Below, piece by piece: positions 28,052 to 39,126 of a stretch of DNA of 55,400 nucleotides. This DNA is from Actinomycetes bacterium (lineage in GTDB: Bacteria > Actinomycetota > Thermoleophilia > Solirubrobacterales > Solirubrobacteraceae). The notes beneath the pieces were generated by a model. The model was not told the origin of the DNA. It saw only the letters and a list, made by a program, of their open reading frames with translations, and searched no databases. Position numbers and translations under genes: made by a program. The stretch is taken from NCBI GenBank assembly GCA_021792455.1, contig JAJYUP010000006.1:1-55400 (forward strand), in the 5' to 3' direction. Each line of letters starts with the position of its first letter. Position 1 is the stretch's first letter.

Positions 28052-28828
28052 ATGGCTGAACGCAGGCTCGTCGATCTCTGGAGCGTGCACCTCGATTCGG
28101 TGCCCAAGAGCCTCTCAGAGCTGCTCTGCAGCGAGGAGCGCTCACGCGCATTGGGGCTCCCAGCGGGGACGGTGCGCTCGCGCTGGCGCGCCTGCAGGGC
28201 GGTGCTCAGACTGCTGCTCTCGGGGCGCCTTCGAGTCGATCCGCAGAGCCTCCGCTTCGAGCTCGGGGCGCATGGCAAGCCGCGCCTAGTCAGCGCAGCC
28301 GAGCACTTCAACATCTCCCACTCCGGCCCGCTCGCCCTCTACGCCTTCTGCGCTGATGCTGAGGTTGGCGTCGACGTCGAGCTCATCTCCGCTTCGTCGC
28401 GGCGGCGGAACGAGGTTGCGATCGCCTCCAGGCTGTTTGGGCAGGAGGCGGCGCGCCGTCTCGCCTCCCTGCCGGAGCGTGAGCGCTCTCTCGAGTTCCT
28501 CTCGCAGTGGGTGAGGCATGAGGCGGTCGTGAAGTGCATCGGCTGCGGCATCGGGCACGCCCTCGACGAGCTGCGAAGCGAGGACCTGCCCTCCGTGCTC
28601 GACGTCGAGCTCGATTCGGCTCTCGCCGCGGTCGCCGTCGCTTCCAGTGCGGCTGAGGTGCGCATGCACGAGTGGACTGTGCAGCGGGCTGAGGGCGACG
28701 AGGTCAGTGCCGAACCGGGCCTCACTGGGGCTCGGGTTGCCTCACTGGGGCTCGGGCGTGAGCTGCCTCACTCGGGCGTGAGCTGCCTCACTCGGGCTCG
28801 CGCTGCCGACCTCGTGCGCTGTATCTGA
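28052..28828 (+). CDS. 4'-phosphopantetheinyl transferase, Sfp type
   Basis: A 258-residue enzyme that loads phosphopantetheine from CoA onto carrier proteins. The motifs run in order: HGKPRL (74-79) and FNISHSGPLALYAF (86-99), the Mg-binding GVDVE (106-110), and the WVRHEAVVK block (153-161) corresponding to WxxKEAxxK, with Glu157 and Lys161 kept and the first Lys replaced by His. The last 45 residues are low-complexity and encoded by 20-bp tandem repeats. The final 41 bp overlap the 3' end of convergent rmlC. No polyketide or peptide synthetase is in the window, so its carrier is elsewhere. Confidence 0.85.
   Translation: MAERRLVDLWSVHLDSVPKSLSELLCSEERSRALGLPAGTVRSRWRACRAVLRLLLSGRLRVDPQSLRFELGAHGKPRLVSAAEHFNISHSGPLALYAFCADAEVGVDVELISASSRRRNEVAIASRLFGQEAARRLASLPERERSLEFLSQWVRHEAVVKCIGCGIGHALDELRSEDLPSVLDVELDSALAAVAVASSAAEVRMHEWTVQRAEGDEVSAEPGLTGARVASLGLGRELPHSGVSCLTRARAADLVRCI
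28720..28800 (+). repeat. 20-bp tandem repeats in the PPTase 3' end
   Basis: CCTCACTGGGGCTCGGG recurs at 28720 and 28740, and CCTCACTCGGGCGTGAGCTG-like units recur from 28766 and 28786, giving a 20-bp periodicity with one 26-bp step. The period is not a multiple of three, so copy-number change would alter the PPTase C-terminus. Confidence 0.7.
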
Positions 28829-29378
28829 AGGGCAGCTGATCGGCGATCTCGGCGAGCCTTGGCGCACCAGCATCGCGCTCTGAGGCGGTGAGCGTCAGGT
28901 CGGAGGGCCAATCTATCGCCACCTCTGGATCGCACCAGGAGATCCCCTTCTCGAGCGCGGGATCGTAGTAGGCGCTCTGCTTGTAGATCACGTCAGCTGT
29001 CTGCGAGAGCACGCAGAAGCCGTGGGCGAAGCCGACAGGCACGTACAGCAGGCGCATCTCAACGTCGTCGAGATGATAGGCCTCCCATTCGCCGTAGCTT
29101 GGCGAGCCCGCCCTCAGGTCGACGAGCACGTCGAGGATGCTTCCCCTCCCGCAGCGCACGAGCTTTGCAACACCCTGCCCGACCTGGAAGTGCATGCCCC
29201 GCACGACGCCTCTGCTCGAGCGGGAGTGGTTGTCCTGGATGAAGCTCTCATCCTCAGGGATGCCGAGCTCCTCATGCCACTGCTGCCTGTAGGTCTCGCA
29301 GAAGAAGCCGCGCTCGTCGGGGAAGACTCGCGGCTGGATCAGGATTGGGCCCTCGAGTCGCGTCTGGATGGTCTTCAC
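28788..29378 (-). CDS. rmlC: dTDP-4-dehydrorhamnose 3,5-epimerase
   Basis: A 196-residue cupin of the RmlC family. The N-terminus ILIQPRVFPDERGFFCETY, the core HSRSSRGVVRGMHFQ with catalytic His63, VDLRAGSPSYGEWEA, PVGFAHGFCVLS and the YKQSAYYDP segment with the catalytic Tyr are all present. It epimerises C3 and C5 of dTDP-4-keto-6-deoxyglucose on the way to dTDP-rhamnose or a related sugar. rmlA, rmlB and rmlD are not in this window. It is the last gene of the minus-strand polysaccharide operon, and its 3' end overlaps the convergent PPTase gene. Confidence 0.9.
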   Translation of the reverse strand: MKTIQTRLEGPILIQPRVFPDERGFFCETYRQQWHEELGIPEDESFIQDNHSRSSRGVVRGMHFQVGQGVAKLVRCGRGSILDVLVDLRAGSPSYGEWEAYHLDDVEMRLLYVPVGFAHGFCVLSQTADVIYKQSAYYDPALEKGISWCDPEVAIDWPSDLTLTASERDAGAPRLAEIADQLPFRYSARGRQREPE

Positions 29379-29390
29379 AGGCCGCGGAGC

Positions 29391-31484
29391 TTACCGTTGC
29401 GGCGATCCTGCGTCAGCCACCTGGGGCCGCGCCAGGCGCGCCATCAACGTTGGCGCATGGCTGCGGATCAGCGAGATCGTCTCTTGGTTCTCTGCGCCTC
29501 TGACTGTGCGGCTCTTCGAATGCGCCTGGATCCGGTAGATCGCAAGCATTTCTGCGACGTGCGATCCATACCACCGTCGCTCTGCGAACCTCGCCCACAG
29601 GTCGTGGTCCTCACAGCAGTCGAGTCTGGGATCTTCACTGTAGCCTCCGACGTCGAGGATGGCTGCTCTCCGGATCAGAGCCATCGCGTCGATGTAGTTT
29701 TTATCCATCAGCCGTTTCTCATCCCATGGCCAGACGTTGTGGACGGCCCACATCTCGCCTTCGCGCAGGACGGCCTGCATCGGGTATGAGAAGGCCGCGG
29801 AAGGGTCCGCTTCGAGCGTGTCGAGGAGGCGTCGAAGCGCGGTGGGAAACACGATGTTGTCAGCGTCCATCACGAACAGGAACGCGCCTCGCGCATGCGA
29901 GATCAGCTCGTTGCGGGCGTGCGCGACGCCGAGGTTGATCGGGCTGCGCCAAAGCTTCGCCGGCAGCCACGGATGCGCTTCGATGAAGCGCTGCGCGAAC
30001 GCTGCGGATCCGTCGTCTGAGGCGTCGTCGAGCGCGAGCACCTCGAAGCTGACCCCTTCGGATGCGGCGATGCTGTGCAGGCAGGACTCGAGCTCCCGCT
30101 CGTAGTTCCAGACGGGGACGATGACTGAGACGGTCGGGGAGGCTGTCGCGAACGAGGCGCTCCAGCAGACCTCCACTGGCTCCTGTGGGGGCGTTCCAAA
30201 TCGCATCCAGTGCTCGATCGCATCGAGCCTGCGGCGGATCGCTGTTGTCTGAATCAAGAGCCGCTTCAGAGATGCCTCGGGGTGGCTCATCTCGCTGTGC
30301 TTGCTCTCCGGGTCGCTGCAAAGCGGCTCCATCCCGTGTGCGACACACTCAGGGTTGCTGCTTTGGCCCCTCGGCCCCCCTGCTCTCGCAGCCGCTTGAT
30401 CGGCTGTTTCAGCGATTGGCTCCGGCCGCACGTGCGCGCCGGCGCGGAAGGCCTCTGCGCTTGCAGCCCGGGTGCTAGATGCTTGGGCGGGCGGGGGAAG
30501 CGTCCGGACGAGCGTGAGCAGGCGCGCAACTGAGCTGGCCATCTCGATCTCATTGCGCAGATGCGCGTAGGCGCGTGACCGCATCTCCAGCAGCGATCGC
30601 TCATCTGCGATCAGCTCGCCTGCTATCAGGGCGAGGTCTTCTGCCCTTCCGGTCAGATGGTGCTCGCCCGCCTGCAGCGGGGCAGAGTCGAGCGCATGCT
30701 CTGCGATGACGACGCAGCCGTTTGCGATCGCGGCGACCGCAAGCGGCCACTGCAGATGACGGCGCCCTTCGTCGTGGAGCATCAACAGGATCTCGCTGTT
30801 CCGCAAGAGGCTTCGAAGGGAGCCGCCGAGCAGGTGGTCGTACTGCTCTGAAGCGCGATGTACGTCTTCTGGAGTGACGATGCGTGAGCGGTGGGGCCAG
30901 AGGTCGGCTGCCCAACTCGCGATCACCTTCTCGTTGCGCGAGCTGCAGGCGCCTATGTGGAGGATGTCGATCGCGCGCGCCTTCGGAGGGTCCGCGACGG
31001 CCTCGAGTGCCGCAGACCAGCCGACCTGGAAATGGACAGCATCGATGCCTCGCCGTGCAAGCTCCGTGCATCCGGCTCTGTGTGTGTGCATCGCGTGCGC
31101 GGCTCGTGCTGCAAGATCTGCGGTGTGCTCGAACGCGGCGCTCGAGGGCGGCTCGAGACAGAGGACGACAGACTGGCGCAGAAGATCGGGGTCGGCCTCG
31201 GTCAGCGCCCATAGGAAGCTCAACGGGGGTTGCAGGGCAAGAACGTTGGCGGCGATCGGGCCGGCCACAGGCAGCTTCAGCTCGACGGCTTCTGCGGTCG
31301 AGCCGATCGCCCTCGCACTTGCCACGATCGACTCGACGAACAGATGGCTGATCGGGTCGGCGTCGATCGGTATCGCGATGCGCAGCTCACTTGCGCGCAA
31401 CGAGGAGCTCGTGTCGCTGCCGGAGGGCGCCCGCAGAGCTCCCACGGAGGGCGCAACGCAGACATCTGTACGAGACCATGCCAA
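29391..31484 (-). CDS. Two-domain glycosyltransferase (GT-B-like module fused to GT2)
   Basis: A 697-residue protein. Residues about 30-330 resemble the CgeB-like/GT-B C-terminal module seen in the genes at 39126 and 40238 (a GCVVIAEHALDSAPLQAGEHHL stretch and a following charged helix). Residues 330-430 are a low-complexity linker. From about 445 a classical GT2 domain follows: SVIVPVWNYERELESCLHSI, LDDASDDGS, INLGVAHARNE, DXD-like FVMDADNIVFP and the acceptor-side CEDHDLWARFAERRW. It probably adds one or two sugars to the surface polysaccharide at the inner membrane. It lies 8 nt downstream of the coiled-coil gene and 12 nt upstream of rmlC. Confidence 0.85.
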   Translation of the reverse strand: MAWSRTDVCVAPSVGALRAPSGSDTSSSLRASELRIAIPIDADPISHLFVESIVASARAIGSTAEAVELKLPVAGPIAANVLALQPPLSFLWALTEADPDLLRQSVVLCLEPPSSAAFEHTADLAARAAHAMHTHRAGCTELARRGIDAVHFQVGWSAALEAVADPPKARAIDILHIGACSSRNEKVIASWAADLWPHRSRIVTPEDVHRASEQYDHLLGGSLRSLLRNSEILLMLHDEGRRHLQWPLAVAAIANGCVVIAEHALDSAPLQAGEHHLTGRAEDLALIAGELIADERSLLEMRSRAYAHLRNEIEMASSVARLLTLVRTLPPPAQASSTRAASAEAFRAGAHVRPEPIAETADQAAARAGGPRGQSSNPECVAHGMEPLCSDPESKHSEMSHPEASLKRLLIQTTAIRRRLDAIEHWMRFGTPPQEPVEVCWSASFATASPTVSVIVPVWNYERELESCLHSIAASEGVSFEVLALDDASDDGSAAFAQRFIEAHPWLPAKLWRSPINLGVAHARNELISHARGAFLFVMDADNIVFPTALRRLLDTLEADPSAAFSYPMQAVLREGEMWAVHNVWPWDEKRLMDKNYIDAMALIRRAAILDVGGYSEDPRLDCCEDHDLWARFAERRWYGSHVAEMLAIYRIQAHSKSRTVRGAENQETISLIRSHAPTLMARLARPQVADAGSPQR

Positions 31485-31492
31485 AGCAGGTC

Positions 31493-31858
31493 CTAGCCTC
31501 GTGCGAACAGCTGCGAGCGCAGCTTCCGTCCGGAGGCTGCAATCCGGCGCAACGGCGTCGTCAACCGCCAGCTCATGCTCCGCTGCATGGCATCGGCGAG
31601 CGCTTCCATGCTCTGCGAGGAGGCGCGTGCCTCCTCGAGCGCCTGCCTGTGCACCTCGAGCTCACGCTCGAGCTCGCCGATCCGCTGGTGCAGCTCCGCC
31701 TCTGCGCTGAGCAGCCTCAGATTGTCGAGCTCGAGCTGCTGCAGCGTGCTGCGATGGCGCTCTGACCGGCTTGCCTGCTGCTCAGCGCGCGCGCGGAGGA
31801 GATGCGCGACCTGCGTCGGCTGGGTCTCGCGATCACGAGCCGCTCGATCGTCTCTCAC
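31493..31858 (-). CDS. Small coiled-coil protein with SWRxTxPLR tail
   Basis: A 121-residue protein from GTG 31858. Residues about 15-92 form a strong Leu/Glu heptad coiled coil (QQLELDNLRLLSAEAELHQ, then RIGELERELEVHRQALEEA). It ends in MQRSMSWRLTTPLRRIAASGRKLR (residues 91-114 contain this stretch; motif at 94-104). The same motif closes the glycosyltransferase at 35054 (SVSWRVTKPLR), where it also follows a coiled coil. Here no catalytic domain is attached. It may be a scaffold linking glycosyltransferases at the membrane. It lies between a GDP-sugar dehydratase homologue and a glycosyltransferase in the same operon. Confidence 0.7.
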   Translation of the reverse strand: MRDDRAARDRETQPTQVAHLLRARAEQQASRSERHRSTLQQLELDNLRLLSAEAELHQRIGELERELEVHRQALEEARASSQSMEALADAMQRSMSWRLTTPLRRIAASGRKLRSQLFARG

Positions 31859-31982: not shown

Positions 31983-33014
31983 TCAGCGGGGTGAGCGACC
32001 GATCTCGCCCCGCCTCAGCGCCGCGAGATCGGCGTCCACCATCCTCTCGACGAGCTGCTCGAAGCTGATCGTAGGGTGCCATCCGAGCAGCCTTCTCGCC
32101 TTTGAGGGGTCTCCGACGAGCGCTGCGTGCTCGCTGCGCCGTTCGAGGGCTGGATCGCGGCGCACGCACTGCTTTGCGTCGAGCCCGAGGTGGGCGAAGG
32201 CTGCCTTCGCGAACTCGAAGACGGTGTGCCCGATGCCGCTTGCGAGGATGAAGTCCTCAGGGTCAGGCTGCTGCAGCATCAGCCACGCTCCACGCATGAT
32301 GTCAGCCGCGAAGCTCCAGTCGCGGATCGCCTCGAGGCTGCCGAGGTTCACCGTCTGCTCGAGACCAAGCTTCACCGCGGCTGCCGCCTTCGTGATCTTC
32401 CGCGTGACGAACATCTCAGGCCTGCGCTCAGACTCGTGGTTGTAGAGGATTCCGGAGCAGGCGAAGATCCCCGCCTCTGTGCGCATCTGGCCCGTCAGCT
32501 GGTGGGCCGCGAGCTTCGCCGTCGCGTATGGGCTCACTGGCTGACAGGCGGTGAGCTCAGTCTGGGGGCTCTCACTTGCAGAGCCGAAGATCGCCGCCGA
32601 GCTTGCGATGAAGACGCGAGTGTGGAGGCTGTAGTCGCGGACTGCCTGAAGCAGGGTCGCGCAGGAGCATGCGATCGCCTCGATCGTCTTTGCGGGGTGC
32701 CGCCAGGAGTCAGGCACGAATGAGGGGGCGGCGAGATGGTAGAGCTCGTCGGGGCGCAGCGAGAGGACCACGCCCTCGAGGGCGTTGCTGTCGGTCAGCT
32801 CCCCTTCGATCAGCGTCACCCTCCCCCGCAGATGCTCTGCGCAGCCAAGGCTTCTCGCGCTGCCCCCTCTGATCAACCCTGTGACCTCATAGCCCTTCTG
32901 CAGCAGCAGCTCGGCGAGGTAGGAGCCGTCCTGTCCTGTCAGCCCCGTGATGAGCGCACGCCTGCCAGCGCCAGCTCGCTGCTCAGCGGGCATCTCGTCT
33001 GTCAGGTGCAGCAT
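31983..33014 (-). CDS. GDP-mannose 4,6-dehydratase homologue (possible GDP-4-keto-6-deoxymannose reductase)
   Basis: A 343-residue extended SDR clearly paralogous to the neighbouring gmd: ALITGLTGQDGSYLAELLLQKGYEV (Rossmann), the YNHESERRPEMFVTRKI block, and YxxxK in SPYATAKLAAH. Where dehydratases carry the acid Glu in the S/T-S-E motif (ASSSEMFG in gmd), this protein reads ASSAAIFG, so the Glu is Ala. That loss argues against dehydratase chemistry and for a reductase- or epimerase-like role on the gmd product. No intein is present. It starts 22 nt after gmd; ATG 32993 is an alternative start. Confidence 0.75.
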   Translation of the reverse strand: MLHLTDEMPAEQRAGAGRRALITGLTGQDGSYLAELLLQKGYEVTGLIRGGSARSLGCAEHLRGRVTLIEGELTDSNALEGVVLSLRPDELYHLAAPSFVPDSWRHPAKTIEAIACSCATLLQAVRDYSLHTRVFIASSAAIFGSASESPQTELTACQPVSPYATAKLAAHQLTGQMRTEAGIFACSGILYNHESERRPEMFVTRKITKAAAAVKLGLEQTVNLGSLEAIRDWSFAADIMRGAWLMLQQPDPEDFILASGIGHTVFEFAKAAFAHLGLDAKQCVRRDPALERRSEHAALVGDPSKARRLLGWHPTISFEQLVERMVDADLAALRRGEIGRSPR

Positions 33015-33035: not shown

Positions 33036-35042
33036 TCAAGATCTCGCGCCGGCGCGCAAGAGCTTCAGGTCGGCGTCGACCATCAGCCTGATCAGCTGCT
33101 CGAAGCTCGTCTTCGGCTCCCAGCGAAGCTCCCGCTTCGCCTTCGAGGGATCTCCGATCAGATGGTCGACCTCCGCTGGGCGCTTCAGAGAGTCGTCGAT
33201 CACGACGTGATCGTCGATCTGCAGTCCCGCCTGATCGAAGGCGATCTGCAGGCAGGTGCGCACGGAGTGGGCGAGGCCCGTCGCGATCACGTAGTCGGCA
33301 GGCTCGTCGCGCTGGAGCATCAGCCACATCGCTTCGACGTAGTCCTTTGCGTAGCCCCAGTCGCGTTCGGCGTCGAGGTTGCCGAGGCGCAGCTTCTCAG
33401 CCAGGCCGAGCTTGATCGCGGCGGCGTGCCAGGTGATCTTGCGGGTGACGAACTCGAGGCCCCTGCGGGGGGAGTTGTGTACGATGACCCTACCCACGCC
33501 TGCGCAGAACACGCCGCTTTCGGTCTCGAGATCGAAGACCCAGTCGTCGTCAGAGACGGGAGCGGGCTCAACGCGTCTTACCTCCGCAGGGCTGCGCACC
33601 AGGTGTGCGCCGTTGCCGCCGACGCGGACCGCGGAGCGAAGGTTCAACTGGTAGTAGGTGCGGCCATTGCGCTGTTCCGCGTAGACAGAGGCTGGCTGGC
33701 CCTGATTGAAGTAGAGCAGGCAGAGGCCCTGTGCGAGCACCGCGCTGTTTGTCTTGATCGACTCGCCGTTGCCTGCCTTCAGCCCGTCTCCGGCGCAGTA
33801 GCCAGCGAGGAAGCCCTTCTGGATCTCGCGAGTGGCGTTCAGGACCAGCGGCGGCACCTGCTTGAACGAGCTTCGCGTATACAGCTGCTCACGCAGCCAT
33901 GGGCCGACCGCAGGGGCCCCGGAGAAGTCCACAGCTTCGACGCTCGCTCGCTCGTCGAAGCCGGAGGTCCCCGACCGCGGGCGGGACTGGCCGAGGAAGA
34001 CCTGTGACCAGAGGCCCATCGCCCTCGAACGGATCATGAAGTCGTTGTTGGTCAGCCGAACATGCTTGCCGTCGCGTGAGACGTGGCCATCAGCTGCGAG
34101 CAGGCCGAGCAGCTCGGCCAGCTCTGGCGTCACGGAGGTCCAGCCAGGAGCGTCTGGCATCCACTGCCCGATCGCGAGCTCGTCGCCCTCCTGGACAGCG
34201 CGAGCGGATAGCTTCTCTCGGTCAGCGTCGAGCATCTGGTGGTGTGCGGTCACGTCCAGGACGCCACCGCGCGCATGGATCCGCAACAAGTCGTGATCAG
34301 CATCTGTGGCACGCCGTCTCGTCGCTGTGATCGCCTTCACGATCGTCCAGTCGGTTCCGTCCCATACCTCGAGCAGGTCGTCTGGAGAGTGCGTTTGGAC
34401 GCTGGGACCCTTGCGGCGCAGCGGCATCAGCTCCCGCGGGGTGGAGATCGCCACGATGCCGAGCTGCCGGATGATCAACGGTGTCTCGGCAGCGACGCAC
34501 TCGTGGTTGAACAGTATCCCGCTCGTCGCGTGCAGGTCGTAGGACTCCCTGTAGTTGACTGTGATGAAGTGCCCATATGCCTTCGCGACTCCATATGGGC
34601 TGCGCGGGTAGAAGGGCGTCGCCTCCGTCTGCGGGACCTCTCTCACCTTCCCGAACATCTCACTCGAGGAGGCCTGGTAGAAGCGCGCCTCTGGACACAC
34701 CTCGCGCATCGCCTCCAGCATCCTCGTCACGCCGACCCCTGTGAACTCCGCCGTCAGCGTCGGCTGGATCCAGGAGACCGCGACGAACGACATCGCCGCG
34801 AGGTTGTAGATCTCGGTTGGCTTCGCCGCGCGAAGCGCGTCGACGAGCGAGCGCTGGTCGAGCAGGTCGCCCTGATGAAGCGTGATCTTCTCGCGCAGGT
34901 GCTCTATGCGCTCGAACTTCTCCGTCGAGGAGCGGCGGACCATTCCATGGACCTCGTAGCCCTTTTGAAGGAGCAGCTCAGCGAGGTAGGAGCCGTCCTG
35001 ACCGGTGATGCCCGTGATGAGCGCGGAGGGGCGGGATCGCAT
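33036..35042 (-). CDS. gmd: GDP-mannose 4,6-dehydratase precursor interrupted by an intein
   Basis: The 668-residue frame consists of an N-extein (1-181), an intein (182-523) and a C-extein (524-668). Joined, the exteins give a 326-residue GMD of normal length: ALITGITGQDGSYLAELLLQ, the catalytic motif SSSE (residues 125-128), YxxxK in SPYGVAKAYGHF, and a restored FNHE-SPRRG motif. It converts GDP-mannose to GDP-4-keto-6-deoxymannose, the precursor of GDP-rhamnose/fucose-type sugars. ATG 35042 is chosen because it starts the Rossmann strand and lies 12 nt after the upstream gene's stop. Function requires protein splicing. Confidence 0.93.
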   Translation of the reverse strand: MRSRPSALITGITGQDGSYLAELLLQKGYEVHGMVRRSSTEKFERIEHLREKITLHQGDLLDQRSLVDALRAAKPTEIYNLAAMSFVAVSWIQPTLTAEFTGVGVTRMLEAMREVCPEARFYQASSSEMFGKVREVPQTEATPFYPRSPYGVAKAYGHFITVNYRESYDLHATSGILFNHECVAAETPLIIRQLGIVAISTPRELMPLRRKGPSVQTHSPDDLLEVWDGTDWTIVKAITATRRRATDADHDLLRIHARGGVLDVTAHHQMLDADREKLSARAVQEGDELAIGQWMPDAPGWTSVTPELAELLGLLAADGHVSRDGKHVRLTNNDFMIRSRAMGLWSQVFLGQSRPRSGTSGFDERASVEAVDFSGAPAVGPWLREQLYTRSSFKQVPPLVLNATREIQKGFLAGYCAGDGLKAGNGESIKTNSAVLAQGLCLLYFNQGQPASVYAEQRNGRTYYQLNLRSAVRVGGNGAHLVRSPAEVRRVEPAPVSDDDWVFDLETESGVFCAGVGRVIVHNSPRRGLEFVTRKITWHAAAIKLGLAEKLRLGNLDAERDWGYAKDYVEAMWLMLQRDEPADYVIATGLAHSVRTCLQIAFDQAGLQIDDHVVIDDSLKRPAEVDHLIGDPSKAKRELRWEPKTSFEQLIRLMVDADLKLLRAGARS
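33474..34499 (-). other. Intein with LAGLIDADG homing endonuclease domain inside gmd
   Basis: It encodes 342 residues from Cys1 (gmd residue 182, CVAAETPLI) to the terminal Asn (residue 523), followed by extein Ser+1. Splicing blocks are visible: block A around the first Cys, block B TxxH in DVTAHHQML (T265-H268), block F WVFDLETESGVFCAG, and block G VIVHN with penultimate His. Two LAGLIDADG-type motifs, LLGLLAADG (311-319) and FLAGYCAGDG (411-420), both keep their acidic residue, so the homing endonuclease may be active. The insertion point is between NHE and SPRRG, the most conserved substrate loop of GMD. Confidence 0.92.
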
Positions 35043-35053
35043 GGGTTGGGAGA

Positions 35054-36478
35054 CTAGCGGGCAGGGGGGTCGTGCGGAGATGGGCTCAGCACTCCGGATC
35101 GTGTCCGTCTGACGGCTGCCTTCACGCTTCGCAGCGGCTTCGTGACGCGCCAGCTCACGGAGTTGCGCATCTGCTCGATCACGGTTGCGCAGCACGCCCG
35201 CTCAGCGTTTGCCTTTGCGAGCTCCTCTGTCGCCTTTGCCACTTCTGCGCACGCCTTGCGCAGTTCCACGGACACGCGTTCAGCCCACGCGGCGGCATCG
35301 TCCCTGTCTGCCTCGAGCTCGGCGATTCGTGCGAGCGCCCGCCGGCTGTCGAGCAGCGCGCTTGCGAGCGCCTCTGAGACCTGATTGCTCCCGTTGCCCT
35401 CAGGCGAGGGCGGGGCCTGGGCGCGCGCCGCGCTCGATGCGAGCGGCTCGAGCCACTCGATGAAGCGCTCATCACCGTGCGAGAACGGGTTTGGCGGCTC
35501 TTCTCCGAGGCCGTCTTCGAACTGCAGCAGCGCTGTTCGATAGCACTCACGCATCCATGCGGCGATCGGCACGCCAGCGGGGGTGACCGTGTAGGTCGGT
35601 GCCGTCGAGCGTGCCCGCTCGTAGCCGAGCGCGAGCAGCCGCTGCGCGTACTCGCGCACCAGCTGGGCTGCGCCGGGTCGCTCCCTCAGATCCGCCCACC
35701 ACGCGGCGAGCGCCGCGATCGGCGTGAGGTGGTCAGGCTGCAGTGGGTCGAAGCTGCCTGCGAAGTGAAAGTGCCGCAGTCGCTCGCCGTCGATCTCAGG
35801 GACCTGTCCGTTCCACTCGATGTCGCGGGTGTGGAGGTTCCATCCAGCTACATTGCAGCCGCGGTCGCGGAGTATTTCGTGCTCGAACAGACATGGTGCG
35901 AGCGTCAGCCACGTCTGGTCGAACATGATGCTCGCCTGCGGTTCGAAGACGCAGTGCCGACGCGTGCGCCGCGCCCACCAGCGCAGCGCCTCCTCCGCCC
36001 CCTCGGCGGCTCCGACGAAGCCGGCGTTCAACGCCCCCGCGCGCAGGATCACCTGCTCTGGGCTTTCGCCCCGCGACAGCGGGTATGGGTCGAGCGAGTG
36101 CGGGCAGAGCAGCAGCGAGTGCCTCTCGCAAAGCGGCGCGAGCGGATCGAGATCTGAGTAGATGCGTCCGTCAGCATCGATGAAGAGCAGCGGCCCTCTG
36201 CTCTCTCGCAGCAGTGCGAGCAGCACGTCCGGCTTCATCGACGCGGCCAACCCCTGCGTGTTGTACATCGTCGCTCTCCGGTGGAGCTCGTCTGAGTCGA
36301 TGCCGATGTCCTGAGGCCCCAGCGTCCGAAGGCGAGCTTCGCCGCTCAGCGCCGCCCTCGAGTCCTCGTCGAAGACGAGGACGTGGATCGTCGAGCGTCG
36401 ATTGTGCGTGAGAAACGACTCTGCGAGCACGCGCGCGTGCGCGACGTAGTTGCTCGTTGCGATCGTGCAGACATCCAT
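35054..36478 (-). CDS. GT8-like glycosyltransferase with C-terminal coiled coil
   Basis: A 474-residue protein starting MDVCTIATSNYVAHARVLAESFLTHN, with a DxD motif at 101-103 (LLFIDADGRIYSDL) and NAGFVGAAEG, CNVAGWNLHTRDIEWNG and LRHFHFAGSFDP blocks. These resemble the nucleotide-sugar GT-A domain of family 8-type transferases. After about residue 375 it becomes a coiled coil (ELEADRDDAAAWAERV...) ending in SVSWRVTKPLR (440-450). ATG 36478 fits better than 36523, because the extra 15 residues overlap a probable promoter. It is the first gene of the minus-strand operon, followed by gmd after 12 nt. Confidence 0.8.
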   Translation of the reverse strand: MDVCTIATSNYVAHARVLAESFLTHNRRSTIHVLVFDEDSRAALSGEARLRTLGPQDIGIDSDELHRRATMYNTQGLAASMKPDVLLALLRESRGPLLFIDADGRIYSDLDPLAPLCERHSLLLCPHSLDPYPLSRGESPEQVILRAGALNAGFVGAAEGAEEALRWWARRTRRHCVFEPQASIMFDQTWLTLAPCLFEHEILRDRGCNVAGWNLHTRDIEWNGQVPEIDGERLRHFHFAGSFDPLQPDHLTPIAALAAWWADLRERPGAAQLVREYAQRLLALGYERARSTAPTYTVTPAGVPIAAWMRECYRTALLQFEDGLGEEPPNPFSHGDERFIEWLEPLASSAARAQAPPSPEGNGSNQVSEALASALLDSRRALARIAELEADRDDAAAWAERVSVELRKACAEVAKATEELAKANAERACCATVIEQMRNSVSWRVTKPLRSVKAAVRRTRSGVLSPSPHDPPAR

Positions 36479-36519
36479 CGTTTCGCGCTCGGCTCTGAAG
36501 TGCGGTCGCGCAACGCCTA

Positions 36520-36525
36520 GCATAT
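36520..36525 (-). promoter_or_regulatory. Putative -10 of the minus-strand polysaccharide operon
   Basis: TATGCT on the minus strand lies about 41 nt upstream of ATG 36478, in the short divergent region shared with the wzt promoter. Confidence 0.35.
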
Positions 36526-36604: not shown

Positions 36605-38215
36605 ATGTCCGATCCGCCGTTTCCGCCGATCGTCGTCGATGACGTCCACAAGCGCTTCGAGATCCCACGCGAAAAGGTGAGCACTCTGAAGGAGCGGGCG
36701 CTGCATCCGTTCAAGCGGGTGCAGACCGATGCCCTGCATGCGCTGAGAGGCGTCTCCTTTCAGGTTCGCCCTGGAGAGTTCTTCGGCATCGTCGGTCGCA
36801 ACGGATCGGGCAAGTCGACGCTCCTGAAGTGCCTCGCCGGCATCTATGGGGTCGACAGAGGGGGCATATACGTCAACGGCCGCATGTCGACCTTCATCGA
36901 GCTGGGGGTCGGGTTCAACCCGGACCTGCCCGCGCGTGACAACGCCCTGCTCAACGGCACGATGCTTGGTCTCAGCCCTCGCGAGGCGCGGGCGCGCCTC
37001 GACAGCGTCATCGAGTTCGCGGAGCTGCACGACTTCGTCGACCTGAAGATCAAGAACTACTCCTCTGGGATGCTCGTGCGGCTCGCATTTGCCGTGATGA
37101 TCCACGTCGATGCCGACATACTGCTGATCGACGAGGTGCTCGCGGTTGGAGACGCCGCCTTTCAGCAGAAGTGCTTCGACGAGTTCGAGCGCATACGCGC
37201 TGGCGGCGCGACAGTCCTGTTCGTGACGCATGACATGTCCGCCGTCCGTCGCTTCTGCGACCGTGCGCTGCTGCTCGAGCGGGGACGTCCCGTCCAGTTG
37301 GGCGACCCTGAGTCTGTCGGCAACAGGTACTTGGAGCTCAACTTCTCAGATCAGGCGAGGCTCGAGGAGGCGGAGGCTGCTGAGCGCGAGTCCGGCGCGG
37401 GCGGCACGCCTGCGCTTGGTGCGGCGCGTCGGCGTCGATTGGGTGCGGGGCGACTCTCTGGCTCCGACGCAGAGACGCTCGTCAGCTCGGCGTCGATCGG
37501 ACCGCTTGGCCCCGAACCAGTGGAACGGTCTGTGCCTGAGGCGATCGGGCTCCCTGAGACCGGCTCGATCGGACCGCTTGGCCCCGAACCGGTGGAACCG
37601 TCCGTGCCTGAGGCGATCGGGCTCCCTGAGACTGGGTCGATCGGACCGCACAGATCCGACTCGATCGCCCAGGCCCGTTCCCTGCCGATGCACCTGCCCC
37701 ACCGCGACTCACCTCGTCGCTCCATCTCCGCACCGGCGGGTGCCGCCAACGCACATCAGGGCGACGAAGCGGCTGAGATCCTCTCCGCCTGGTTTGAGGA
37801 CGAGCAGGGCGAAGCAGTTGATGTGCTCCGGCCCCGGAGCACCTGCAGCGTCGCGGTGCAGGTGCGCTGCCAGCGCGATCTGCACATGCCGATCTTCGCG
37901 GTATCGCTCGAGAACGGCCATGGAGACCGCGTCTTCACTGCGACGAACGTCGAGTCCGACTCAGCTCGCGACTCCTTCGCCGCCGGCGAGCTCGTCACGT
38001 TCCGGGTCTGCTTCACGAACGTGCTTGCGCCCGACAGGTATCACCTCACCGTGTCCGTCGCCAGCGAAGAGGGCGCTTGGCACGATCGGCGTGAGCGGAT
38101 GATCTCCGTCGTCGTCGCCGGAACGCGCAGCTCTGATGCGCTCGTCGAGCTGCCGTACGAGTTCGTCCTGCAGCGAGGATCACCTCAGCCGGCGCTGCCG
38201 ACAGAGCGGAGATGA
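36605..38215 (+). CDS. wzt: ABC exporter ATPase for surface polysaccharide (Wzt-like, with C-terminal domain)
   Basis: A 536-residue protein. The ATPase part has Walker A GRNGSGKST (64-72), the polysaccharide-exporter signature NYSSGMLVRLAFA, Walker B ILLIDEVLAVGD and H-loop VTHDMSAVRRFCDRALLLERG. A linker of about 110 residues contains two 24-residue repeats (SIGPLGPEPVE...). The C-terminal 140 residues (ILSAWFEDEQGEAVDVLRPRSTCSVAVQV... FAVSLENGHGDRVFTATN) form a beta-sandwich like the Wzt glycan-binding domain, which recognises the finished chain. It overlaps the permease gene by 4 bp. Confidence 0.9.
   Translation: MSDPPFPPIVVDDVHKRFEIPREKVSTLKERALHPFKRVQTDALHALRGVSFQVRPGEFFGIVGRNGSGKSTLLKCLAGIYGVDRGGIYVNGRMSTFIELGVGFNPDLPARDNALLNGTMLGLSPREARARLDSVIEFAELHDFVDLKIKNYSSGMLVRLAFAVMIHVDADILLIDEVLAVGDAAFQQKCFDEFERIRAGGATVLFVTHDMSAVRRFCDRALLLERGRPVQLGDPESVGNRYLELNFSDQARLEEAEAAERESGAGGTPALGAARRRRLGAGRLSGSDAETLVSSASIGPLGPEPVERSVPEAIGLPETGSIGPLGPEPVEPSVPEAIGLPETGSIGPHRSDSIAQARSLPMHLPHRDSPRRSISAPAGAANAHQGDEAAEILSAWFEDEQGEAVDVLRPRSTCSVAVQVRCQRDLHMPIFAVSLENGHGDRVFTATNVESDSARDSFAAGELVTFRVCFTNVLAPDRYHLTVSVASEEGAWHDRRERMISVVVAGTRSSDALVELPYEFVLQRGSPQPALPTERR
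37493..37636 (+). repeat. Two 72-bp in-frame repeats in the wzt linker
   Basis: TCGATCGGACCGCTTGGCC recurs at 37493 and 37565, and the motif starts again at 37637. Each unit encodes 24 residues. Confidence 0.85.
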
Positions 38216-39126
38216 GCGCCCCGATGGCTGCACAGGAAGCACACCGCTCGACCACGACGCACCCGTCGGATGCCTACGGTCACCGAATCAAGGGTCCGTC
38301 TGCGCTTGGCTCGAGCCCCCGCCGCATGTGGCACCTCACCTGGTCTCTCGCGCGCACCGAGTTCAAGCTCGCCTACTTCGGGTCGGTGCTCGGCTACCTC
38401 TGGCAGCTCATGCGCCCGCTCATGCTCTTCGGGGTCATCTACGGAGTGATCAGCGCATTCGACAAGAAACTCAGCGCAGGGGCGCCGCTGTTCCCGGTCG
38501 CGATTCTTCTTGGCATAGTGATGTACAACCTGTTCTCAGAAGGGACCGCTGGTGCGGTCTCATGTCTCCTCAACAGAGAGAACCTCGTTCGCAAGATCGA
38601 GTTTCCGCGGCTTGCAGTGCCGCTCGCGACTGTGATCACGTCGCTGATGAACTACAGCCTGAACATGATCCCAGTGGTCGTGTTCCTGCTCGCGGCGGGC
38701 GGTGCCATCAGGTGGACGTGGATTGAGGTGCCGGCGCTCGTGCTCCTGCTCACCGCCTTCATAACTGGGCTTGCGGCGGTCCTCTCCGTCAGCTACGTGC
38801 GCTACCGCGATGTGCGGCCGATCTGGGAAGTCGTGCTGCAGATGATGTTCTACGGCTCGCCGATCTTCTACTCGATATCGAGCCTGAAACATCTCACTCT
38901 GCTTGGCGTGAGGGTCAACATAGCGCACGTGATGATGGCCAATCCGTTCTCCGCGATTCTCGAGCAGATGCGTCACGTCCTCATCAGCCCGCGCTATCCG
39001 AATGCGGCACAGGCGATCGGAGGCCCCGCGATGCTGATGATCCCGGTGGGGATCGGGCTCGCCGTGATCGTGTTCGGGTTCCTGCTGTTCGACCGGGAGG
39101 CACCGCGCGTGGCGGAGCAGCTGTAG
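38212..39126 (+). CDS. wzm: ABC-2 type polysaccharide export permease (Wzm-like)
   Basis: A 304-residue permease with a cytoplasmic N-terminus ending in LARTEFKLAYFGSVLGYLWQLMRPL, the amphipathic entry typical of Wzm/TagG permeases, and about six spans (about 65-85, 95-115, 145-170, 175-205, 210-240, 275-300). It forms the membrane channel for the lipid-linked glycan, paired with the upstream ATPase (ATGA overlap). Its stop overlaps the GTG of the next glycosyltransferase gene, so all three form one operon. Confidence 0.9.
   Translation: MSAPMAAQEAHRSTTTHPSDAYGHRIKGPSALGSSPRRMWHLTWSLARTEFKLAYFGSVLGYLWQLMRPLMLFGVIYGVISAFDKKLSAGAPLFPVAILLGIVMYNLFSEGTAGAVSCLLNRENLVRKIEFPRLAVPLATVITSLMNYSLNMIPVVVFLLAAGGAIRWTWIEVPALVLLLTAFITGLAAVLSVSYVRYRDVRPIWEVVLQMMFYGSPIFYSISSLKHLTLLGVRVNIAHVMMANPFSAILEQMRHVLISPRYPNAAQAIGGPAMLMIPVGIGLAVIVFGFLLFDREAPRVAEQL

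Follow-up and report, generated by a model that had tools for sequence, protein, structure and literature searches.

Among the systems described so far, the closest to the small protein considered here is WbdD of Escherichia coli O9/O9a, a chain terminator made up of a methyltransferase-kinase, a coiled coil and a C-terminal recruitment region. This C-terminal region is reported to recruit WbdA, to carry an amphipathic helix and to bind the membrane (PMC3482155, PMC3447403, PMC11231755), and chain length is reported to be set by the length of the coil (PMC5082667); the amphipathic helix is given for a WbdD construct of residues 1-600, which does not fix its placement relative to the motif at residues 592-598 treated below (PMC3447403). 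Klebsiella pneumoniae O4 ORF7, O7 ORF6 and O12 WbbB, which are likened to our protein by description only, are reported to be coiled-coil terminators forming a membrane-associated scaffold of the polymerase complex, with modules variably split or fused (PMC11231755). The stretch analysed here (the window) comprises the first 55,400 nt of contig JAJYUP010000006.1 from an Actinomycetes bacterium of the Solirubrobacteraceae (GCA_021792455.1, a draft assembly of 3.15 Mb, 83% complete). On its minus strand, at 31493-31858 and from a GTG start, it encodes a stand-alone coiled-coil protein of 121 residues, here named CC121, which closes with a tail module that will be called the foot. Judged from its sequence, CC121 is best explained as a WbdD-type terminator reduced to its non-catalytic half, the coil and foot, with the catalytic head missing, and it would most likely act as a membrane-located scaffold for the adjacent glycosyltransferase, perhaps as part of a mixed coiled coil.

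The two proteins share a coil followed by an SxSW..T foot (residues 592-598 in WbdD of strain HS), a place in an ABC-transporter locus with Wzm and Wzt, and a neighbouring gene for a multi-domain glycosyltransferase polymerase. In the window, the Wzt_C domain, the C-terminal carbohydrate-binding module expected beside a chain terminator, lies at 37754-38140, 6.2 kb away. The partner enzyme, GT697 (29391-31484, minus strand), follows CC121 after 8 nt and consists of a weak Glyco_trans_1_2-like region and then a GT2 domain, whereas the partner of WbdD is WbdA, annotated as a mannosyl polymerase. The other differences concern the ends of the protein: CC121 has no catalytic head, since no Pfam domain above the cut-off and no NCBIfam match were found in it, and 17 residues follow its motif compared with about 105 in WbdD. 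Read in this way from the sequence, CC121 is not a chain terminator but has the non-catalytic half and the genomic slot of one.

An initial annotation of this open reading frame (ORF) as a long coiled coil with an SWRxTxPLR tail was borne out. The motif reads SMSWRLTTPLR (31547-31579), and AlphaFold2, run on the single sequence, predicts one helix over residues 3-119, with a mean predicted local distance difference test score (pLDDT) of 87.9 and a dip around the motif; an extended coiled coil of the WbdD type is thereby predicted, the heptad contrast of which was equalled by 1 of 200 shuffles. The same annotation had seen this arrangement in a glycosyltransferase of the window, which corresponds to a headed foot protein (35054-36523, minus strand) with an N-terminal domain, a coiled coil and the foot SVSWRVTKPLR (35129-35161). 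The arrangement is indeed shared, but the motif is not the very end of either protein, being followed by 17 mostly basic residues in CC121 and by 24, also basic, in the headed one. By our own reading of its sequence, the N-terminal domain of the latter looks like a GT-A enzyme; no named family was found for it in Pfam, NCBIfam and PDB sequence searches, the AlphaFold model of the protein is of low confidence (mean pLDDT 38), and its ORF has two possible starts, 36523 and the ATG at 36478, the latter being the one taken in the initial annotation.

The connection with WbdD was traced with a foot profile built from 56 tails found in the family, no E. coli sequence being included. When two E. coli O-antigen regions with 312 ORFs in all were searched with this profile, the best-scoring ORF was the O99 terminator (E 4e-5), followed by the O9 WbdD of strain HS (E 3e-4) and then by an ORF at E 0.77; the two top matches both fall where the coil joins the C-terminal region (the names O99 terminator and O9 WbdD are ours, the records saying methyltransferase, beside wzt genes labelled O9 and O99). 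The tail itself is described by none of the Pfam or NCBIfam matches obtained for foot proteins, a PDB search with the profile gave nothing convincing, and no paper on the motif was found in a literature search of limited reach.

The foot is widespread and, as a module, almost always stands near the C-terminus. In the window, a six-frame search with the strict motif matched CC121 and the headed glycosyltransferase only, and the DNA pattern for WRxTxPLR gave two matches against 0.01 expected from shuffles; the whole assembly contains five, the other three either not reading SWR or not lying in a coil-like ORF. A survey of 146 genomes of the family yielded 116 pattern matches in 68 genomes, compared with about 51 for a reversed control pattern (counted manually), and 56 of the 116 satisfied a strict reading like [ST]WR[LIVM]TxPLR, namely S or T, W, arginine (once serine), a hydrophobic residue, T, any residue, P, and L or F. 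From 54 fetched family matches plus the window, 59 motif ORFs were obtained (protein lengths 92 to 1000 residues), in nearly all of which 6-31 residues separate the motif from the stop, while in two it is internal; 56 of the 59 rows were retained for further work, leaving out L071 (53 residues, a likely chance match) and two L094 rows that copy L093. From named genomes, at least 120 loci were collected, some of them chance matches, placing the module in Proteobacteria, Actinomycetota, Acidobacteria, Chloroflexi, Firmicutes and others; a simple coil rule retained 82 of these, with the foot C-terminal in 56, internal in 18 and cut by an end in 8.

That the motif should be enriched near glycan loci, a condition on which the initial annotation had staked its proposal, was confirmed: within 20 kb of a Wzt_C domain lie 26 of the 56 strict family matches against 1 of the 60 others (Fisher p 2.6e-9), and that single non-strict match reads SWRSTKPLR and looks like a real foot. 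The statement of that annotation that such tails occur on other polysaccharide glycosyltransferases held only in part, since glycosyltransferase heads do occur but methyltransferase heads are as common. In fact, about 21 of 56 family proteins carry a methyltransferase head, the GT2 and GT4 families coming next. The 76 named proteins scanned (out of 101 listed, that is, the 120 named loci minus 18 chance or edge cases and one duplicate; the longest were excluded by hand for size) include 21 with GT2 heads as well as methyltransferases, PIG-L deacetylases (4 of 76) and sulfotransferases (3 of 76), the last two suggesting that chain ends are modified in further ways. At L090:2551-5784 (plus strand) a fused version of the pair is found, a single polypeptide in which a methyltransferase-like head is followed by the foot (at residue 301) and then by a GT2 domain.

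The partner enzyme provided a further line of evidence. GT697 homologues were found as 24 matches in 22 of the 146 family genomes, and a foot gene stands in the flanks (up to 1.5 kb) of 18 of them, 9 of these foot genes lying upstream in the same orientation, 6 divergent and 3 convergent. The foot density near Wzt_C (26 matches in at most 5.8 Mb) would lead one to expect about 0.4 by rough hand arithmetic, or somewhat more as the contigs are short; therefore, the foot is paired with the GT697 family and not just with the cluster. Four of the 18 partners are headless (in the window and in genomes G103, G039 and G122) and 14 carry a methyltransferase head, 13 of them by Pfam (with one scan for the alike L103 and L104) and L108 of G095 by reading of the sequence. 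Methyltransferase-coil-foot partners such as L079, L082 and L074 thus occupy the same genomic slot and have the same foot as CC121, differing in that they keep the head. In a phylum-wide sample of 396 genomes, the N-terminal domain of GT697 was met in 3 genomes (4 matches).

The headless genes stand close to their glycosyltransferase, at 8 nt in the window, 8 nt in G039 and 2 nt in G103, those of G122 being divergent; moreover, in Amycolatopsis a headless foot gene of 183 residues overlaps a GT697 homologue (37% over 593 residues) by 4 nt. No remnant of a head was detected upstream of the headless genes in the window, G103, G039 and G122 by tblastn with headed foot proteins; the same search gave no match at all in Amycolatopsis, the foot included, and hence says nothing about a head remnant there. 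A broken head would be detectable, as indicated by the 147-residue ORF L091 of G129, in which the head was found in another frame. This ORF, first taken as headless, was ruled out as such and left uncounted, L091:4976-5900 (minus strand) being a methyltransferase-headed foot gene with an apparent frameshift between head and tail. L173 (111 residues), L195 (113 residues) and L183 (135 residues) also look headless, with less clear neighbourhoods, and stand outside the four counted; two of these possible headless genes, L183:4074-4478 (plus strand) and L195:7476-7814 (minus strand), lie beside other glycosyltransferases, in Jannaschia seosinensis and a Solirubrobacterales metagenome-assembled genome.

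On the glycosyltransferase tree, in which several long branches make exact placement unsure, at least 4 changes are required to account for the headless partners, and a single clade is rejected (approximately unbiased test, p 2e-67). The headless coil of G103 can be aligned (E 2e-14) with residues 314-396, the coil and foot, of the methyltransferase-headed partner in G109, whose glycosyltransferase is the nearest to that of G103 on the tree; since the coil of one matches the coil of the other, a loss (or gain) of the head did happen. CC121 more likely descends from a methyltransferase-headed terminator, through loss of the head, than from a truncated glycosyltransferase. The latter, which the initial annotation had named as what would overturn its proposal, was rejected as the main explanation, as neither the domain search nor tblastn upstream of CC121 detected a glycosyltransferase domain or a remnant of one, the L091 control being positive.

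Taking these results together, CC121 is read as a headless WbdD-type scaffold that docks GT697 at the membrane, probably sharing a mixed coiled coil with the headed foot glycosyltransferase, and a probability of roughly 58% is given to this reading. The coil of CC121 would pair in parallel with like coils, most likely its own copies and probably also those of the headed protein at 35054-36523, and the assembly would hold GT697 where the chain is extended for Wzm/Wzt export; membrane binding, the oligomer partners, the recruitment of the glycosyltransferase and any effect on chain length are what we infer. The scaffold or adaptor role originally proposed is partly supported, because the pairing with one glycosyltransferase family is conserved and the foot matches WbdD at its non-catalytic coil end, with the correction that WbdD-type terminators and not glycosyltransferases are the proper reference. 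More tentatively, headless coil-foot proteins might be genuine subunits without catalytic function that join headed terminators in a shared coiled coil, so that the ratio of capped to uncapped strands, and not coil length alone, would tune chain length and glycosyltransferase load, such subunits having evolved several times by loss of the head.

Several observations nevertheless weigh against the preferred reading. The coil signal is modest, one of four headless coils, that of L054, not rising above shuffles (32 of 200), and the tail is only moderately amphipathic (mean hydrophobic moment 0.44 against 0.32 in shuffles, standard deviation 0.16). No whole-length orthologue of CC121 was found in the 146 family genomes, the best other matches (E 4e-5) covering coil and foot only, and its N-terminal 30 or so residues are without known counterpart. 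Six of the 24 GT697 homologues have no foot gene in their flanks (G096, G062, G014, G114, G117 and one G111 contig end), three of the six being the weakest matches; wider stretches altered the result for G014 alone, a foot gene being present there at some kilobases' distance, and two further homologues from the phylum-wide sample (G298) have none within 1.5 kb. Co-occurrence across genomes is weak, Wzt_C being present in 32 of 36 genomes with the motif and in 81 of 110 others (Fisher p 0.07). Furthermore, the strict motif is half kept in WbdD (SRSWRMTKGYR) and in the O99 protein (SRSWMITKPYR), the latter, which reads SWMIT, having been missed by the regular expression.

A simpler arrangement, in which CC121 is just a membrane tether for GT697, takes no part in a mixed coil and has nothing to do with chain length or termination, would agree with the direct gene pairing in the window, G103, G039 and Amycolatopsis and with the basic tail, whose net charge, counted from the W onwards, averages about +6. 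We regard it as rather unlikely, since at three of the four family headless loci the same cluster also encodes a headed foot protein, as a mixed complex would have it: the glycosyltransferase in the window, a 1000-residue GT4 protein in G103 and a 274-residue methyltransferase protein in G122. In G039, a 921-residue glycosyltransferase just upstream has a coil-like C-terminal stretch and no foot. Improbable to a greater degree is that CC121 is what is left of a methyltransferase-headed terminator and is now on its way out; such decay does happen, as the frameshifted gene of G129 attests, and headless and headed partners interleave on the tree, yet the foot of CC121 is intact, its codon use resembles that of its neighbours (GC content at third codon positions 0.82, synonymous score 0.449), the tight spacing to the glycosyltransferase (8, 8 and 2 nt, and a 4-nt overlap) has been kept, and the form recurs in at least four lineages with no head debris upstream.

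The foot could also be a general localisation tag of many glycan enzymes, the headless form then being a competitor or regulator of foot-binding sites instead of a scaffold. The variety of heads and the occasionally internal foot, with more sequence downstream, would suit such a tag, but pairing with one glycosyltransferase family is more specific than it predicts and no shared docking site emerged from the data, so that this explanation is very unlikely. Least credible of all is a chance ORF in high-GC DNA: CC121 is short, its GTG start is by our reading without a clear Shine-Dalgarno sequence and ORFs on the other strand overlap it, while two motif matches against 0.01 expected, a codon score that is the best among the six frames and a conserved partner speak for a real gene.

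The SxSWRxTxPLR foot makes WbdD-like coiled-coil proteins easy to recognise by sequence throughout bacteria, and similar headless rods beside the same kind of glycosyltransferase in other bacteria suggest that the rod by itself contributes to building the cell coat. Should the headless form be functional on its own, scaffolding would be separable from capping, which would offer a clean route to test the molecular-ruler model and would point to glycan export systems in little-studied Actinomycetota. No relative was found in viral contigs.

The remaining genes of the locus are arranged on both strands. On the minus strand, the headed glycosyltransferase is followed by a GDP-mannose 4,6-dehydratase (33036-35195, true start probably near 35042), a second GDP-mannose dehydratase or reductase-like protein (31983-33014), CC121, GT697 and an RmlC-like dTDP-sugar epimerase (28788-29378), the last gene of the presumed operon. 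Adjoining this run on the plus strand are a Wzt-type ABC ATPase with the Wzt_C carbohydrate-binding domain (36605-38215) and a Wzm-type ABC-2 permease (38212-39126). The first dehydratase frame is split by a putative intein-like insert, with a LAGLIDADG_3 match (Pfam) at residues 358-396, and in Wzt the linker that joins the ATPase domain to Wzt_C contains an in-frame 72-bp tandem repeat in 2.2 copies (37488-37649).
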